DNA of 21,012 nt. Source: a virus. Position numbers and translations under genes: made by a program. Position 1 is the stretch's first letter, and each line of letters opens with the position of its first letter. A model generated the notes under the pieces. That model made no database searches and was not told the DNA's origin. It saw nothing but the letters and a program-made list of their open reading frames with translations. Positions 7,840 to 14,651 of the stretch are shown here, one piece after another. The stretch lies in IMG/VR virus record IMGVR_UViG_3300032093_008317, positions 1-21,012 of that record; one strand, 5' to 3'.

Positions 7840-9969
7840 ATGAAAAGCGAAAACATCACATCAGGTAGACTTCAAAAGGTTTCAACTGGATGGACGCAGG
7901 GAGTCAATTCGGTGCGGAACCCTTGGGCGTTGCCAGAAAATCAATTTAAGTGGGGGGTCAACCTCTCGATTCGCGGCGGCATCGCGCAGACTCGCCCCGG
8001 CTACAAAATGCAGTTGAGTCTTCCGCCGGGCAACTTGCAAGGAGGCGTGATTTTTCAGGCAAACAAGCAGAAAGAAGCATCGTTTAGCCGCGAAGAAAAT
8101 GGAGTCACGACTGTAGTTCCTGCTAAAATTTTTGATGTAAACGGAGATGGTGTTGTTCAACAAGAATTGAGCTACATCGTCTTTGCAGTTGATGGTTCTG
8201 TTTACTATGCGCCATTTCCATTAGTTCAACCGAAGAACTGGAATGATTTTAAGCTAACGAACATAAAGTTCGACAAGGATGTTGAGAACATTGCTTTTGC
8301 TTTAGCCACAAAAACAGCAAATCTGGCGACTTCCGAAAATGAGTTAGTAACCCCAGCCCATACCATCGTGATGATGCAGGACGGGCAGTCTGCGCCGGGT
8401 TGGTGGGATGGTAGCGACAAGGTTGGCAATCAGGATCGCGCTATTCCAACTGGGACTCATATGGCTTATTCAGGCAATCGAATGTGGATTGCTGAAAAAA
8501 ATATTGTTCTTGCATCCGATCTTGGCGACCCCACCTCATGGCAAGAACGCACAACAGGAACTGGGCGCGGAGACTTCGCTTTTGTGCGACCAGTTACTGG
8601 TCTTGTTTCCTATGTAGGTCAAGATACCTCTACACGATTAATTGTGTTTACAGATCGAGCCACATATTCGCTTGCAAGTGGAATTTTGGACCGCACTCAA
8701 TGGTCCACTACGGCAAACTTTCAAAACACGCTTTATCCTACAATTGGATGCGTTTCTAATAGGTCGATTGCATTCCAAGCTGGTCAATTGTGGTGGTATT
8801 CTGATGGAGGATTAGTTGCAGCAGACATTGCGTCTGCAAGTTATTTATCTTCTCAAGTCTTGTTTAAAGACATTGAGATGGCGCGAACCAAGCAATTAAT
8901 GGATGGCGACCCATCTAATATTTGCGCGGTTGCATTTGAAAACTATTTAATGTACTCCGTTCCATATCTGTCAAAGCTAAATACTGACACAATGGTTATG
9001 GATTATGCTCCTGCGGCAGAGTGGGGTGGAGGACGGCAACCAGCATGGGCAGGAGTATGGACAGGAACTCGTCCTGTACAATGGACTACAGGCAAGATCG
9101 ACAATCAAAATCGATGCTTTCAATTTTCAATTGACTACGCTCCGACTGCCGATGGTTCTTACAACCATCTTTGGGAGGCTTTTCAACCAGAACGCTACGA
9201 CACTTATCTGCAAATCAATCCTGATGGAACGAATACTGATTTGTACAATAGGATTTATTGCCAATTAGAGACTCCATTGCTTGGTGATTCAATGGATTTA
9301 AAGCAGTTTATCTATTCTGAAATTGATGCTTGCGAGATTGGCGGGACAGTTGATTTAAAAGTAAGCTACAAAGGAAGTAAAGGCAGGTATTTGCAAATCT
9401 TGAATCAAAGGATTTTGGCGGTCACTAATGAATGGCAGTACAAAGGGACTCCATTTGAAGATCAGATTAACAAGGTTTCGCTTTTAAACACTCAATATCG
9501 CAGGTTAATTACGGAATCTGCGAATAGAAGCGCAACTTACGAAACTTGCGAAAGTTCCCTTACCAATGATGTTGATAAGGCTTTTTCAATTCTAATCGAA
9601 TGGTGCGGAGAGATGGGGATTGAGATCGTTCGCTTATTCATCGATCCTTGGAGCGAGAAAGCCACAGGAATCCCTCAAGCTAACGAAACGAAGTCATGCG
9701 TGGTTGGACAGAACGGACAGAATTTCACGATTGACCTTGAGTCAAGCCCATACGAAAACGCTTTGCTAAACCAGCAGACATGGAGTGCGAAGGTTTACAA
9801 GACTGTCACACTCTCTTGCACAAGCAGCAGTCAGACCATTTCAGCTACCGCAAGCGCATCGTTTATCTCGACTGTTTCTTATAGTCACGCGAAGGAAGAA
9901 GCTAGTAAACTCGCAGAGCAAGCCGCGACAAATGCCGCACAGGAATTCAAGGCAAACAATCCCTGCTAA
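7840..9969 (+). CDS. tail nozzle / tail tube B-like protein with Ala-rich C-terminal tail
   Basis: A 709-residue protein starting immediately after the preceding TAG. The N terminus (GWTQGVNSVRNPWALPENQFKWGVN...GGIAQTRPGYK) is the typical opening of phage proteins that build the tail nozzle or a beta-propeller stabilising layer. The opening describes ordered variables, then repeated W/Y-rich strands (YIVFAVDGSVYYAPFP, RMWIAEKNIVLASDLGDPTSWQ, RLIVFTDRATYSLASG, QLWWYSDGGLVAAD) read as propeller blades. T7 gp12 is of similar length (794 residues). The last about 50 residues (ATASASFISTVSYSHAKEEASKLAEQAATNAAQEF...NPC) are an added Ala-rich helical tail resembling DUF5977-type ends of phage proteins. 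It presumably assembles directly below the product of the upstream gene. Confidence 0.75.
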   Translation: MKSENITSGRLQKVSTGWTQGVNSVRNPWALPENQFKWGVNLSIRGGIAQTRPGYKMQLSLPPGNLQGGVIFQANKQKEASFSREENGVTTVVPAKIFDVNGDGVVQQELSYIVFAVDGSVYYAPFPLVQPKNWNDFKLTNIKFDKDVENIAFALATKTANLATSENELVTPAHTIVMMQDGQSAPGWWDGSDKVGNQDRAIPTGTHMAYSGNRMWIAEKNIVLASDLGDPTSWQERTTGTGRGDFAFVRPVTGLVSYVGQDTSTRLIVFTDRATYSLASGILDRTQWSTTANFQNTLYPTIGCVSNRSIAFQAGQLWWYSDGGLVAADIASASYLSSQVLFKDIEMARTKQLMDGDPSNICAVAFENYLMYSVPYLSKLNTDTMVMDYAPAAEWGGGRQPAWAGVWTGTRPVQWTTGKIDNQNRCFQFSIDYAPTADGSYNHLWEAFQPERYDTYLQINPDGTNTDLYNRIYCQLETPLLGDSMDLKQFIYSEIDACEIGGTVDLKVSYKGSKGRYLQILNQRILAVTNEWQYKGTPFEDQINKVSLLNTQYRRLITESANRSATYETCESSLTNDVDKAFSILIEWCGEMGIEIVRLFIDPWSEKATGIPQANETKSCVVGQNGQNFTIDLESSPYENALLNQQTWSAKVYKTVTLSCTSSSQTISATASASFISTVSYSHAKEEASKLAEQAATNAAQEFKANNPC

Positions 9970-10619: not shown

Positions 10620-10630
10620 TTTATGGGAGG
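10609..10630 (+). promoter_or_regulatory. Shine-Dalgarno and start region, duplicated at 13609
   Basis: GAAAGGAATAAT followed by ATGGGAGG. The same arrangement recurs before the gene at 13624, differing only in the bases directly before ATG. AGGA at 10612-10615 lies 7 bases from the start, good spacing for a Shine-Dalgarno site. Confidence 0.8.
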
Positions 10631-11495
10631 TGTAGCATCAGTTGACGCAGGAAGATATATGAGCAGACCTGACATGAGTCAGGAAGGTGCTTTGTTATCT
10701 CAAAAACATGAAATGGGGCGTGGAGCTTTGGAGGGACAGATTGCTGACCTACAAACCCGTGGACAACTTTTTGACTTATATTCAAAAAGCCAACCATTAA
10801 TGCAAGATTTTGATGCCGAGCAAACCTCGCGACAAGCAGCAGAATTTGGATTAAGCAATGAAGCTACTTCCCGTCGATTTGAGCAGATGCTTTCTCCAGC
10901 AACTGCTCGTATGCGCTACCAGTTGCCAGAGCAAATTGAACAGGCAACCTCCGCTCCTGCTTTCAAGAATTTAATGGATGAATGGCTACAGAACAAAGGT
11001 ATTGCGGCATCGTATGCTACTGGAGTTGATCCATCCAGCACTTTTGGTCGTTCTGCACTTGCCGATATGTCTACGGAAGAAGGCAGGAAAAGAATTTTAG
11101 AAGACATCAATATTCGACAAGGTTTTGTTCAATCTCAAGCAAAGCCTATGGGTGGACTAGACCCCGGCGCATTGATCGGCGGCAGGATGGCATCAGAAGC
11201 AGCAAACCTTGGTGCTATGGCAGACTGGCAAAAGAACATTTTTGCTGGGGCGCAATCAATGGGAGAAGGTCTTGGTCAAGCCAGACAGAATGCTTTTGAC
11301 TATCTCTCTAAAAACATGGGTGAGATTTTGAATTTGCAACAGACCTCAAAGGCAAATCGTCAAGCATACGAACAATCTCTGTACGATGCTGCTAGTCAAA
11401 AAGCGCAAGGTCAAAACCAAAGGACAGGCGCAATGATTGGTGGAGGCGCAGCATTAGGTGGAGCGGCAATTGGTGCGGCGGCAATTCTTATATGA
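10623..11495 (+). CDS. probable internal virion / ejection protein, Met-Gly-Gly type with glycine-zipper end
   Basis: A 290-residue protein starting MGGVAS. The bulk is polar, Gln/Ala-rich and predicted helical, with no cysteine. The last about 25 residues (TGAMIGGGAALGGAAIGAAAILI) are a hydrophobic Gly/Ala segment with GxxxG-like spacing, suitable for crossing a membrane or packing in an oligomer. In T7-like phages proteins of this kind (for example gp14) are ejected into the host envelope with the DNA; that role is inferred here from composition and position, not from sequence identity. The last four bases overlap the start of the PP-loop gene (ATGA). Confidence 0.6.
   Translation: MGGVASVDAGRYMSRPDMSQEGALLSQKHEMGRGALEGQIADLQTRGQLFDLYSKSQPLMQDFDAEQTSRQAAEFGLSNEATSRRFEQMLSPATARMRYQLPEQIEQATSAPAFKNLMDEWLQNKGIAASYATGVDPSSTFGRSALADMSTEEGRKRILEDINIRQGFVQSQAKPMGGLDPGALIGGRMASEAANLGAMADWQKNIFAGAQSMGEGLGQARQNAFDYLSKNMGEILNLQQTSKANRQAYEQSLYDAASQKAQGQNQRTGAMIGGGAALGGAAIGAAAILI
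11492..11495 (+). promoter_or_regulatory. ATGA start/stop overlap (translational coupling)
   Basis: ATG of the PP-loop gene and TGA of the upstream Met-Gly-Gly gene share four bases. This arrangement usually lets ribosomes finishing the first gene start the second, coupling their output. Confidence 0.85.
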
Positions 11496-12349
11496 CAAAA
11501 CTTATCGAAAACACGATTGAAAAAGCAAAGTTGTGGGCTAAAAATTGGCCTCACTCTGTTGTTTTTTGGAGTGGCGGCAAAGACTCAACTGCCATGCTAC
11601 ACTTGCTTCGTTTTAAAGCTGGAATTGACATTCCAGTAATCCAGTTTCGCCAACCGAAATTTCGAGAACGCTACGCTTATTCAGACCGATTAATTAAAGA
11701 ATGGGACTTGACTGTTTTTGAGTATCCAGCAAGCCGATATGCGCTTGCAGATGGGCCTGATACCGAGACTGGAGAGGTTCGCTTTGATCTCCTGCATTAC
11801 TTTCAATGGGGAACCAAGGCAGTTGTACTTTCGTTAGGAACCGAGCGTCCGAAAGAAGGCGAGAAGTTCATGTGTGGCGTGGATGACTTCTTAAAACGCC
11901 CGACAGGCACTTTCAATTGGCCTTGGGAATCGGTGTGGATTGGAACCAAAAATAGCGACACAGATTTGATCAAGGGTCATGTACCATTGTCGCAGGAAAT
12001 TCGCTACGCAGAGGGCAGTCCTGTGAGTTTATACCCCATGCACGACTGGATGGATCACGACATCTTCCAGTATCTCATCGATAACAATGTCGAGCCTGAT
12101 CCGACTCGTTATGTCGAGCGGATCAACATTCACACAAGCGCAAAGCAATGGGGAAATAACCCAGATAAATCGCTCAATGCCGACTTCTATCCGACTTGTT
12201 TAAACTGCGTAGATCGGCATCAAGGCAGTCATGTGCATTGTCCTAAATTAAAAGCTACGATTAGCAACATTTCGCATTTAGCACCATACGAGGATATCGT
12301 CATCCCTGATTTAGGATTTCGACCAGTAGAATGGAAGGAGAACAAATAA
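11492..12349 (+). CDS. PAPS reductase-like PP-loop protein
   Basis: A 285-residue protein with the PP-loop SGGKDST at residues 27-33, the nucleotide-binding motif of the adenine-nucleotide alpha-hydrolase superfamily. The order of elements fits PAPS reductases: HLLRFKAGIDIPVIQFRQ, then FREGYA-type segments, W-G-TKAVVLSLGTERP, and DWMDHDIFQYLIDNN. The standard CysH ECG(I/L)H active-site motif is absent. Instead there is C236-x-x-C239, H242, C250 near the end, likely a metal or Fe-S site, and C128. So PAPS reduction is not assured; sulfur transfer to another substrate is possible. It begins inside the stop codon of the upstream ejection-like gene (ATGA), so translation is coupled. Its codon use resembles neighbouring genes. 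Confidence 0.8.
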   Translation: MTKLIENTIEKAKLWAKNWPHSVVFWSGGKDSTAMLHLLRFKAGIDIPVIQFRQPKFRERYAYSDRLIKEWDLTVFEYPASRYALADGPDTETGEVRFDLLHYFQWGTKAVVLSLGTERPKEGEKFMCGVDDFLKRPTGTFNWPWESVWIGTKNSDTDLIKGHVPLSQEIRYAEGSPVSLYPMHDWMDHDIFQYLIDNNVEPDPTRYVERINIHTSAKQWGNNPDKSLNADFYPTCLNCVDRHQGSHVHCPKLKATISNISHLAPYEDIVIPDLGFRPVEWKENK

Positions 12350-12350
12350 T

Positions 12351-12758
12351 ATGGGAGGATCAGCAACAAGCACAACGCCCGGCGGGGCATTCAATCCACA
12401 AGCAGAAGTTCGTCCAGCAACACGGGCAACCGCAGCAGACTTGCAAGCATTTGATGCATCGCAAGCGCAAAATAAACGAATAGCACAAGGTCTAGGAGCA
12501 TTTGCGGAAGGCATCAAAGGCATTAATTTTGACTCTTCCGAATCAAATGCAATGCAAAGCCAAGATCAAGCAGAGAAATATTTGAAGATGCTTGAAATGC
12601 TTCAGAAAAACCAAAAAGAAGGTTTAAACTTCATGCCAAATTTGCCATTCCAACTTCGCAGTTCTGGCGAAAGCGCAGTCTATGATGCTTGGGCGAATGC
12701 TGGGAAAACTTTAGCTAGTAGCGCAATTGGTGGCGTTGGTAAAATGTACGGAATGTGA
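12351..12758 (+). CDS. Met-Gly-Gly virion-type protein sharing PFQ-RSSGE element
   Basis: A 135-residue protein beginning MGGSATS, one base after the PP-loop gene's stop. A strong site AAGGAG lies in the preceding coding end. It is Ala/Gln-rich and helical with no cysteine. Residues 99-107, PFQLRSSGE, recur as PFQIRSSGE at residues 42-50 of the 573-residue protein encoded at 14653. The following segment is also alike (A-or-G-rich helix with GK/NKG-x-x-x-x-L). The C terminus (SSAIGGVGKMYGM) is Gly-rich. The start region matches that of the gene at 13038 (MGGSA). Function is unknown; an ejection-complex or head-to-tail role is inferred from neighbours. Confidence 0.6.
   Translation: MGGSATSTTPGGAFNPQAEVRPATRATAADLQAFDASQAQNKRIAQGLGAFAEGIKGINFDSSESNAMQSQDQAEKYLKMLEMLQKNQKEGLNFMPNLPFQLRSSGESAVYDAWANAGKTLASSAIGGVGKMYGM
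12755..12758 (+). promoter_or_regulatory. GTGA start/stop overlap (translational coupling)
   Basis: The GTG start of the Cys-cluster gene overlaps the TGA stop of the preceding Met-Gly-Gly gene. The next in-frame ATG would drop the first four conserved cysteines, so the GTG is the right start. Confidence 0.8.
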
Positions 12759-13036
12759 CGACCTATGATTGTGAAAAATGTGGAGCTTGTTGCAGTTTTA
12801 AGTGGTCGTGGCCGATTTTCAAGCGAGATCGATCAGACGCAATTGGCATTCCTATTGAAATGCAACGAACTGATTATCCGCTAATGAAGACAGAAAATAA
12901 TAGATGCGTAGCTTTGGATGGAGAAGTAGGTAGTAAAGTTAAGTGTTCTGTTTATAATTGCAGACCACAAGCGTGTCGATTATTTGAACCCGGATCGGAG
13001 CTTTGTTTGGAGGCTAGAACAAAACTAGAAATTTAA
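12755..13036 (+). CDS. YkgJ-type cysteine-cluster (putative zinc- or iron-binding) protein
   Basis: A 93-residue protein with nine cysteines: C6-x2-C9-x2-C12-C13 (CEKCGACC), then C51, C64, C69, C74, C84. The segment Y67-N-C69-RP-x-x-C74-R-x-F-x-x-G80-S-x-x-C84 is the family signature of YkgJ-like proteins, which are expected to hold an Fe-S cluster or zinc. The length is near the usual minimum for the family. All the expected cysteines are present, so it looks intact. It starts with GTG, overlapping the stop of an upstream Met-Gly-Gly gene. The cellular role of this family is not established. Here it accompanies the PAPS-reductase-like protein, both buried in a structural gene run. Confidence 0.8.
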   Translation: MTTYDCEKCGACCSFKWSWPIFKRDRSDAIGIPIEMQRTDYPLMKTENNRCVALDGEVGSKVKCSVYNCRPQACRLFEPGSELCLEARTKLEI

Positions 13037-13037
13037 T

Positions 13038-13595
13038 ATGGGTGGATCAGCATTTGGAAAAACATTTGGCAAATTAACAACAAAAGTTGTTGATCCTTTT
13101 GGAATTAGTAAACCGCTTCGCAGAATTATTGATCCATTAAATATAATGGACCCTTTAAATGTTTTGCCTACAAGCGGAGAAAAATGGTTAACCGCAGACA
13201 AGAATTTTGGCGCACCATTAATGAACTGGTTAAATCCAAAACAAAGTTCATATGCTCCAATGACAAAAGGCTTGAGCCGCGATCCTCAATATTTTGCTCA
13301 ACAACAACAGATGCTGAACAATATGCGTCAGCAACAGCAGGCTAAATTAGCTAATATAAGAGCGCAAGGACAAGCATATCCAACTGCCGCTCCTACGCAA
13401 TCTGTAGAAACTGCACAAGCACCAACAACTACAACTCCAGTTGCACTTGCACAATCCAAAGTTAGTGATACAACTGCTCCTGCTAATATGCCTACCGAAT
13501 TTATTTATAATCCTGCAAAAACAACAACCAAAAGCGTTGCTGCGAATACTTTTCAAATGCCTGATATGTCAAGCATAAAGTTTGGCGGGGTATAA
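13038..13595 (+). CDS. Met-Gly-Gly / Phe-Gly-Gly virion-type protein (1 of 3)
   Basis: A 185-residue protein beginning MGGSAF. Its start region is nearly the same in DNA as that of the gene at 12351. An N-terminal domain with repeated DP-x-N-I/V pieces (IIDPLNIMDPLNVLPT, residues about 30-47) is followed by a Gln-rich helix (about 85-105) and a Thr/Ala/Pro linker. The final 16 residues NTFQMPDMSSIKFGGV align without gaps to the ends of the next two proteins. Here the Gly codons are ggc ggg and are not the next gene's ribosome site. Function is unknown; the shared tail suggests a common binding partner in the virion. Confidence 0.6.
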   Translation: MGGSAFGKTFGKLTTKVVDPFGISKPLRRIIDPLNIMDPLNVLPTSGEKWLTADKNFGAPLMNWLNPKQSSYAPMTKGLSRDPQYFAQQQQMLNNMRQQQQAKLANIRAQGQAYPTAAPTQSVETAQAPTTTTPVALAQSKVSDTTAPANMPTEFIYNPAKTTTKSVAANTFQMPDMSSIKFGGV

Positions 13596-13608: not shown

Positions 13609-13631
13609 GAAAGGAATAATAATATGGGAGG
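13609..13631 (+). promoter_or_regulatory. Shine-Dalgarno and start region, copy of that at 10609
   Basis: GAAAGGAATAAT leads into ATGGGAGG. AGGA at 13612-13615 lies 8 bases before the start. The near-identity to the region before 10623 suggests either duplication of a gene start or selection on the initiation site. Confidence 0.8.
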
Positions 13632-14127
13632 CGCACCAAGCGGACCAAGTAAAAGTCAAATCCAAGCAGAGCAAAACTTGCGATCTCAAGAAATGCAAAT
13701 GCAGCAAGCCATGTTTAACCAGCAGATGGCGCAACAGATGCAGATGTATCAGGAGCAGCAGGCGGCATATGCTGCTGAACAAAAACGATTAGAAGAACAA
13801 CAGCGGCAAGCGGCAATTGAATCGCAGAACGCTTCCGCTCAACAACTTCGTCGTCAGCAAGAATCGAAAGCGCAACAAGAACTTTCTACGCTTTCCAATA
13901 TTCAACAAATTTCCGACCAAAACAAATTAGAACAAGAACGACAGGCTCAAATGGCGGCAGGAACTGCTGCAACTGGTGGCGGTTACAATCTTGGTGCGGC
14001 ACGGCAAAAGGCACTTGTTGACATGGGTGCAATGGCAAATTTGCCGACTACAGAAGTAAATAAACCAAACACAAGTAATGTTTTTGGTTTGCCTAAAACA
14101 ACTGGACTTCAATTTGGAGGTACATAA
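13624..14127 (+). CDS. Met-Gly-Gly / Phe-Gly-Gly virion-type protein (2 of 3), coiled-coil
   Basis: A 167-residue protein beginning MGGAPS. Residues about 12-105 are a long, Gln/Glu/Ala/Met-rich stretch, almost certainly a helical coiled coil with no proline. After it comes a GGGYNLGAARQK block, matched in the next protein as GSGYNIGTAQQQK. The 16-residue tail NVFGLPKTTGLQFGGT follows. The Gly-Gly codons (gga ggt) double as the Shine-Dalgarno site of the next gene. Its composition resembles small ejection or core proteins of podoviruses, but there is no identity that proves it. Confidence 0.65.
   Translation: MGGAPSGPSKSQIQAEQNLRSQEMQMQQAMFNQQMAQQMQMYQEQQAAYAAEQKRLEEQQRQAAIESQNASAQQLRRQQESKAQQELSTLSNIQQISDQNKLEQERQAQMAAGTAATGGGYNLGAARQKALVDMGAMANLPTTEVNKPNTSNVFGLPKTTGLQFGGT
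14116..14121 (+). promoter_or_regulatory. Shine-Dalgarno GGAGGT within FGG codons
   Basis: GGAGGT encodes Gly-Gly of the Phe-Gly-Gly tail and lies 8 bases before the ATG at 14130. It is a full-strength ribosome site inside the upstream coding sequence. Confidence 0.85.
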
Positions 14128-14129
14128 TT

Positions 14130-14651
14130 ATGGGTGGTGGAGGTGGAAAAAAATCAAGCAGCAGCAGCAGCAACAATCAATCAAGTTGGCAAAACGATCA
14201 AGCTGAAGCAATGCGTAGGCAGATGGAAGCTGCACAAAAAGCAGCAGAAGCTGAACGCAAGCGACTAGAGGCTGAACGAAAAGAACAAGAAAGACAACAG
14301 GCTATTCGTGCAGAAAACCAAAAAGCCGCAGATTTTCGCCGTTCTGCTGAAAACAAAATTCAGTCAAATTTTCAATCGATGGCAGAAAATCAACAACGAT
14401 TAGATCAGCAAGCAACGCCACAAGGAGTTGCTGGCTCTGGATACAATATAGGAACTGCCCAACAACAAAAAATCTCTGCCGCTGGTGGTGCTGGGGGCGT
14501 TGCTGGACCCGCATCAACAAACACACCAAGTGCTGTACAAATGGGAATACCACAAGTTTTAGCATCAAATGTTGGGACTGGAGGAACGCAGCAATCAACT
14601 AATCGTTTCACACTACCAGCCGCATCCGGGCTACAATTCGGAGGAATGTAA
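14130..14651 (+). CDS. Met-Gly-Gly / Phe-Gly-Gly virion-type protein (3 of 3), coiled-coil
   Basis: A 173-residue protein beginning MGGGGGKKSSSSSS. It has a basic/Ser low-complexity head, a Glu/Lys/Arg/Ala coiled coil (about 22-90), the GSGYNIGTAQQQK block, a Gly/Ala-rich linker, and the tail NRFTLPAASGLQFGGM. It has the same plan as the previous protein and is clearly a paralogue, though the sequences outside the shared blocks have diverged. Its last Gly codons (gga gga) form the ribosome site of the next gene. Start MGG and end FGG are thus conserved across three adjacent genes. A role in the ejection or tail assembly is inferred. Confidence 0.65.
   Translation: MGGGGGKKSSSSSSNNQSSWQNDQAEAMRRQMEAAQKAAEAERKRLEAERKEQERQQAIRAENQKAADFRRSAENKIQSNFQSMAENQQRLDQQATPQGVAGSGYNIGTAQQQKISAAGGAGGVAGPASTNTPSAVQMGIPQVLASNVGTGGTQQSTNRFTLPAASGLQFGGM
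14640..14645 (+). promoter_or_regulatory. Shine-Dalgarno GGAGGA within FGG codons
   Basis: GGAGGA encodes Gly-Gly of the upstream protein's tail and lies 7 bases before the ATG at 14653. It supports that ATG over any upstream in-frame TTG. Confidence 0.85.

Follow-up and report, generated by a model that had tools for sequence, protein, structure and literature searches.

A virus-specific PP-loop protein family that lacks the CysD and CysH substrate motifs and is frequently accompanied by a YkgJ-type cysteine-rich protein

Introduction

CysD and CysH bind sulfate or a sulfonucleotide through their DTG and GxRR motifs. Viral genes with a 3′-phosphoadenosine 5′-phosphosulfate (PAPS) reductase domain are commonly reported as auxiliary metabolic genes of sulfur assimilation (PMC7785012). 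In FliB, which has eight conserved Cys, the PF03692-like motif binds one [4Fe-4S] cluster (PMC8598068). Here we analyse a stretch of DNA, hereafter the window, that comprises the whole 21,012-base virus record IMGVR_UViG_3300032093_008317 (positions 1-21,012). It encodes a PP-loop protein (PPL) and a YkgJ-type protein of family PF03692, interleaved with genes for proteins that start with Met-Gly-Gly (MGG).

PPL represents a large viral family with a PAPS reductase domain that lacks the substrate signatures, so the sulfur-assimilation reading should not be applied to it. We favour, tentatively, the reading that PPL is a virus-specific, probably iron–sulfur (Fe-S)-dependent adenylating or thiolating enzyme, with the YkgJ-type protein as its Fe-S- or metal-containing accessory. 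PP-loop proteins are a well-known superfamily. In the literature searched, we found no description of the PPL subfamily, of its Cys site, of the missing two signatures or of the recurrent YkgJ-type partner, and no paper on the PPL–YkgJ pair.

Sequence motifs and fold of PPL

PPL matched Pfam PF01507 with 30.1 bits (cut-off 22.5), over residues 23-77 only. The PP-loop SGGKDS was kept in 44/44 diverse PPL sequences, and the longer form SGGKDST was retained. The position of the DTG motif is taken by QxRxPxFRxRY, and that of the GxRR arginine loop by LGTExP. DTG and GxRR, or close variants, were present in most of the CysD, CysH and DndC-like references and in no PPL. Neither ECGxH nor the CC pair was found in any PPL compared, which bears out the first-pass annotation, made from the letters of the window, in its statement that the CysH motif ECGLH is lacking. 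The loss of the motifs by which CysD and CysH hold sulfate or the sulfonucleotide makes it likely that PPL acts on a different substrate. Low scores came from the NCBIfam models: 15.5 bits for CysH (cut-off 154), 32 for CysD (396.6) and 11.6 for DndC (290.4).

Four cysteines, C128, C236, C239 and C250, were invariant in the 44 diverse and 52 further PPL sequences, phages without YkgJ included. The CxxC (C236, C239) and the additional Cys (C250) noticed at first are thus real, and the site must be extended by C128, which had not been listed. We also considered C128 as a homologue of the CC pair of CysH; the alignment gave no support for this. The ratio of nonsynonymous to synonymous substitution rates (dN/dS) was 0.03-0.06, similar to that of the adjoining virion protein, indicating strong purifying selection.

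The AlphaFold model of PPL had a mean predicted local distance difference test (pLDDT) value of 85. The best structural match was CysD (1zun_A; Z 14.2, 2.5 Å over 153 residues), followed by the PAPS domain of FAD synthase, adenosine 5′-phosphosulfate (APS)/PAPS reductases, and then TtuA, NcsA and LarE. These matches barely extended into the C-terminal 50 residues. A tree built with cellular CysD, CysH and DndC-like proteins placed PPL in its own clade on a long stem (support 100/100). The CysD clade was nearest (93/82), and the CysH clade (98/99) excluded PPL. Whether PPL groups with ordinary CysH, a question raised with the first-pass annotation, can therefore be answered in the negative, on the separate clade and the missing CysH motifs; the exact sister clade is uncertain given the long stem.

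If PPL were an ordinary auxiliary metabolic gene, a CysH or CysD of sulfate assimilation that boosts host cysteine synthesis, its PF01507 match would be accounted for, and so it would be treated in the literature on viral PAPS-reductase-domain genes (PMC7785012). We regard this as very improbable: the CysH and CysD scores lie far under the cut-offs, DTG, GxRR, CC and ECGxH are all missing, and the clade is separate. Moreover, in the class that probably hosts group B, one of the two phage groups described below, 50/57 genomes already had PF01507 genes above the cut-off. The suggestion that host sulfur metabolism genes had been inserted into the virion operon is disfavoured for similar reasons, as this host class has its own CysH/CysD and PPL lacks the motifs common to most of the cellular CysH, CysD and DndC-like sequences sampled.

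Matches of PPL to QueC were weak (E 0.001-0.007 in PADLOC, 0.006 in PHROGs). These matches, and the possibility that the four Cys bind zinc, are what one would expect if the Cys formed a structural zinc site and PPL performed QueC-like or other ATP-dependent nitrogen chemistry (amidation, cyano) on a nucleobase or metabolite without transferring sulfur. We consider this rather unlikely. The nearest clade is CysD and not QueC (in the tree without QueC), no other 7-deazaguanine genes were seen among the annotated proteins of G001, a group A genome, and the frequent Cys-rich partner suits Fe-S or metal chemistry better.

Linkage of PPL and the YkgJ-type protein

The YkgJ-type protein matched PF03692 over most of its length (42.5 bits, cut-off 23). 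Its Cys residues 6, 9, 12, 13, 51, 64, 74 and 84 were invariant, the CxxCxxCC motif included, and dN/dS was 0.09-0.17. A structure model was unusable (pLDDT 43.8).

Profile searches of IMG/VR counted 439 relatives for PPL and 291 for the YkgJ-type protein; the 80 best of each set were used. A close search gave 57 loci. The linkage samples partly overlap, and some contigs contributed several loci. Co-occurrence of the two families, a check proposed with the first-pass annotation, was strong, and neither of the two refuting conditions named there came true. Both genes were present in 35/35 loci anchored on the large virion protein with at least 5 kb available downstream. PPL lay upstream in 78/78 loci taken from YkgJ, and YkgJ lay downstream, always on the same strand, in 87/87 loci taken from PPL. 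In a second phage group, YkgJ was found in 62/62 PPL loci, usually overlapping the end of PPL, and in a third sample, ranked around the divergent locus L053, in 38/45.

The seven remaining loci keep PPL without YkgJ. A strict two-gene unit was therefore rejected, and the notion of a fixed pair must be revised. No PF03692 match was found anywhere in the available records of these loci, which may be incomplete. In L362, L364, L366 and L367, and in the truncated L361, a Cys-free protein of 70-80 residues (MIHEFK..P..VVTP..GDG) begins where PPL ends and takes the place of YkgJ; it matched nothing in Pfam or PHROGs. PPL in the YkgJ-less phages retains all four Cys. Since YkgJ is dropped or replaced while PPL keeps its Cys site, we take PPL to be the core component and YkgJ the accessory one.

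The same seven loci, and the five related loci with the Cys-free small gene in the YkgJ position (one on a truncated contig), are also compatible with two independent late genes that are neighbours by chance, their linkage reflecting common descent only. This seems quite improbable to us, because YkgJ never occurred without PPL in 78 loci and was always downstream on the same strand, and because groups A and B share both genes far above the rest of the genome. In addition, by the positions read, none of the 57 host-class genomes had adjacent PF03692 and PF01507 matches apart from a prophage pair; the pairing is thus not a general cellular habit. PF03692 itself was present in 35/57 of these genomes and in 9/14 control genomes.

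Distribution, hosts and exchange between phage groups

Neither PPL nor the YkgJ-type protein was found in 50,697 cultured-phage records, after one mislabelled bacterial contig had been set aside for the latter. This contig, CAKLQH020000013.1 (L344), is labelled ‘Acinetobacter phage MD-2021a’; the stretch carries aceE, aceF, guaB, glmM, pdxH, recJ and prfB, and is bacterial chromosome. Its YkgJ match, lying among these genes, was rejected as a phage relative. Cellular genomes gave five matches, one in a prophage-like region and the others CysD-like or distant. The single clear relative among bacterial and archaeal genomes (51% identity) was on a contig binned as Chthoniobacter, and none was found in 140 further host-class genomes.

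That contig (G003 contig 4, L340-L343) is bacterial chromosome from 1 to ~46 kb, with a thymidylate kinase and an Smc protein that shares 77% identity with that of a relative from the same order, and group B phage from ~47 kb to its end. The phage region is likely a prophage. As the contig joins a Verrucomicrobiota chromosome to the phage, it suggests a Verrucomicrobiota host for group B, with a chimeric assembly being possible. A tyrosine integrase and a tRNA-Ala gene were observed near the opposite end of the contig.

A lax clustering of neighbours merged nearly all loci, and the full-length criterion alone separated two groups, A (213 loci, the window included) and B (86 loci). The group A genomes G001 and G002 are 63-64 kb long with 43-44% G+C and a 127-base terminal direct repeat, which suggests that they are complete circular records; group B records are ~42-44 kb with 59% G+C. 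Between the groups, identity was 47-55% for PPL and 60-68% for YkgJ vs 25-27% for DnaB, and proteins of terminase and portal size gave no BLAST match. Within group A, PPL (76%) was conserved a little less well than the terminase (80%), and a slow rate of evolution in PPL is thus not by itself an explanation for the likeness between A and B. We also observed an endolysin-like protein common to both groups at 62% (L336-L338, G002 40705-41238; L331, G004 22109-22657), which, in otherwise dissimilar phages, suggests related hosts.

Four loci gave direct sequence evidence that PPL has been replaced between phage lineages. In L380, L387 and L394, the flanks and YkgJ were of group B type (YkgJ 83-90% to B), whereas PPL was 69-70% identical to group A vs 56-60% to group B. 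L369 combined group B flanks with a group A-like PPL and no YkgJ.

Gene order and the MGG-type neighbours

The gene order in the window, MGG1, PPL, MGG2, YkgJ-type gene, MGG3, MGG4, MGG5, is exactly as first described, and both 4-base overlaps are real (Table 1). Over distinct genes, PPL overlapped the upstream stop by 1 base in 82/154 cases and by 4 in 8/154, so the exact 4-base overlap was rejected as a conserved trait; 113/118 distinct YkgJ genes overlapped an upstream open reading frame. Phage operons commonly show such close start/stop overlaps. MGG2 is absent from many other phages, in which PPL and YkgJ adjoin or overlap.

Table 1. Features of the window around PPL and the YkgJ-type gene.
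Feature	Position	Strand	Remark
Large virion protein	7840-9969	+	phrog_511 ‘internal virion protein’, E 1e-8; anchor for co-occurrence test
MGG1	10623-11495	+	Met-Gly-Gly start, hydrophobic Gly/Ala C-terminus
MGG1-PPL start/stop overlap, ATGA	11492-11495	+	
PPL	11492-12349	+	285-residue PP-loop ATPase (PF01507), virus-specific subfamily
PP-loop motif S27-GGKDST33 of PPL	11570-11590	+	invariant
Cys128 codon of PPL	11873-11875	+	invariant
C236-x-x-C239 of PPL	12197-12208	+	invariant
Cys250 codon of PPL	12239-12241	+	invariant
MGG2	12351-12758	+	between PPL and YkgJ here and in related phages
MGG2-YkgJ start/stop overlap, GTGA	12755-12758	+	
YkgJ-type Cys-rich protein (PF03692), 93 residues	12755-13036	+	eight invariant Cys
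C-x2-C-x2-CC motif (CEKCGACC) of YkgJ-type protein	12770-12793	+	
MGG3	13038-13595	+	starts MGG, ends FGG + one residue
MGG4	13624-14127	+	starts MGG, ends FGG + one residue
MGG5	14130-14651	+	starts MGG, ends FGG + one residue

The MGG proteins had no Pfam match, and their PHROG matches were weak and of low complexity. Their designation as virion proteins is upheld by their position beside the PHROG internal-virion match and not by any family match of their own. Most distinct sequences among MGG3-MGG5 and their group A homologues start with MGG, end with FGG and one residue, and have a variable Q/A-rich middle. These ends look like a common terminal signal of small virion proteins, to judge from the sequences. 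The three proteins may be comparable to T7 gp7.3-type proteins. Farther 5′ of the virion module, the window encodes a long collagen-like GATG/GxTG repeat protein (1-1519), probably a tail fibre.

In both phage groups, PPL was directly preceded by the gene of an MGG1-type protein with a hydrophobic Gly/Ala C-terminus. Among 118 and 73 distinct upstream proteins in the two groups, 89 and 47, respectively, had MGG within the first 40 residues, and the C-terminal parts of the two groups matched by profile (hhalign probability 70%, E 4e-5). This link of an MGG1-type virion protein to PPL is conserved in both groups. It would fit a role in which PPL and YkgJ modify a virion protein, most likely the upstream MGG type, for example by adenylation, thiolation or amidation of a common terminal motif, with translational coupling setting the ratio. 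The frequent start/stop overlaps would agree with such coupling, but overlaps of this kind are ordinary in phages. Furthermore, group A-type PPL occurs in group B genomes beside upstream proteins that are hardly like those of group A. To our knowledge, PP-loop enzymes with protein substrates are rare. We therefore judge a dedicated virion-protein substrate to be unlikely.

Proposed function

In the Fe-S-dependent reading that we favour, PPL, as a PP-loop ATP pyrophosphatase, would activate its substrate with ATP (adenylation), as its superfamily membership suggests. It would then probably insert sulfur via an Fe-S cluster, or a metal, held by C128, C236, C239 and C250; the ATP hydrolysis, the cluster binding and the sulfur transfer are all predicted. 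The YkgJ-type protein may serve as an Fe-S or metal helper, by cluster supply or by electron or sulfur delivery, and would be dispensable in some phages. PPL has passed between phages whose virion proteins differ, and we therefore prefer as its substrate a molecule that such phages would have in common (tRNA, DNA or a host factor) to a virion protein specific to one phage.

Several observations weigh against this proposal. The four Cys could hold zinc, as in QueC. Neither a cysteine desulfurase nor a DndD/E-like partner was noticed in the sampled, partly annotated phage genomes, and no tRNA gene was found in their phage parts. Finally, an MGG-type gene immediately precedes PPL in both groups, which would suit a role tied to the virion better than a general role.

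A broader proposal, possible but less than probable, is that of a virus-only system, exchanged between phages, which acts late in infection with a YkgJ-family protein as its Fe-S helper. It would modify DNA, tRNA or a virion protein in a way not yet described, by adding sulfur or through other PP-loop-derived chemistry. If this were true, a role other than that of FliB could be assigned to the widespread family PF03692, and not all viral ‘PAPS reductase’ genes would be metabolic. With its recurrent YkgJ-type partner, PPL forms a small system in which the function of PF03692 proteins can be put to the test.

Comparison with known systems

CysD, the small subunit of ATP sulfurylase (TIGR02039; PDB 1zun), shares the PP-loop fold with PPL and is the nearest clade by sequence (32-36 bits) and structure. 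Unlike CysD, PPL is far under the family cut-off, has lost DTG and GxRR (GxRRxEE signature), carries four extra Cys, and has no CysN neighbour within the window. The CysH PAPS/APS reductases share the PF01507 domain and the overall fold (Z 12-14), whereas PPL lacks ECGxH, DTG, the arginine loop and CC, and forms a clade apart.

The fold is also common to the Fe-S sulfur-insertion enzymes TtuA, NcsA and LarE (Z 10-12), in which a few Cys hold a [4Fe-4S] cluster, an arrangement with which the four invariant Cys of PPL are compatible; PPL differs in its low identity (~13%), its Cys spacing and the absence of a recognised tRNA-binding zinc domain. DndC, of DNA phosphorothioation, is like PPL a PP-loop protein with a Cys/Fe-S site, the latter putative in PPL. 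However, its GxRR (GVRR) motif is missing in PPL, and no Dnd partner was present among the proteins examined.

YkgJ/PF03692 proteins and FliB have the CxxCxxCC motif, and FliB its eight conserved Cys, in common with the phage protein (PMC8598068). Unlike FliB, the phage protein has 93 residues and is linked to a PP-loop enzyme, and methyltransferase activity is not implied. The protein A0A6J7XPH8 of an uncultured Caudovirales phage (BFVD), whose name ‘PAPS reductase’ is an automatic label, has the same fold as PPL over its full length, with TM 0.78/0.83 and 32% identity.

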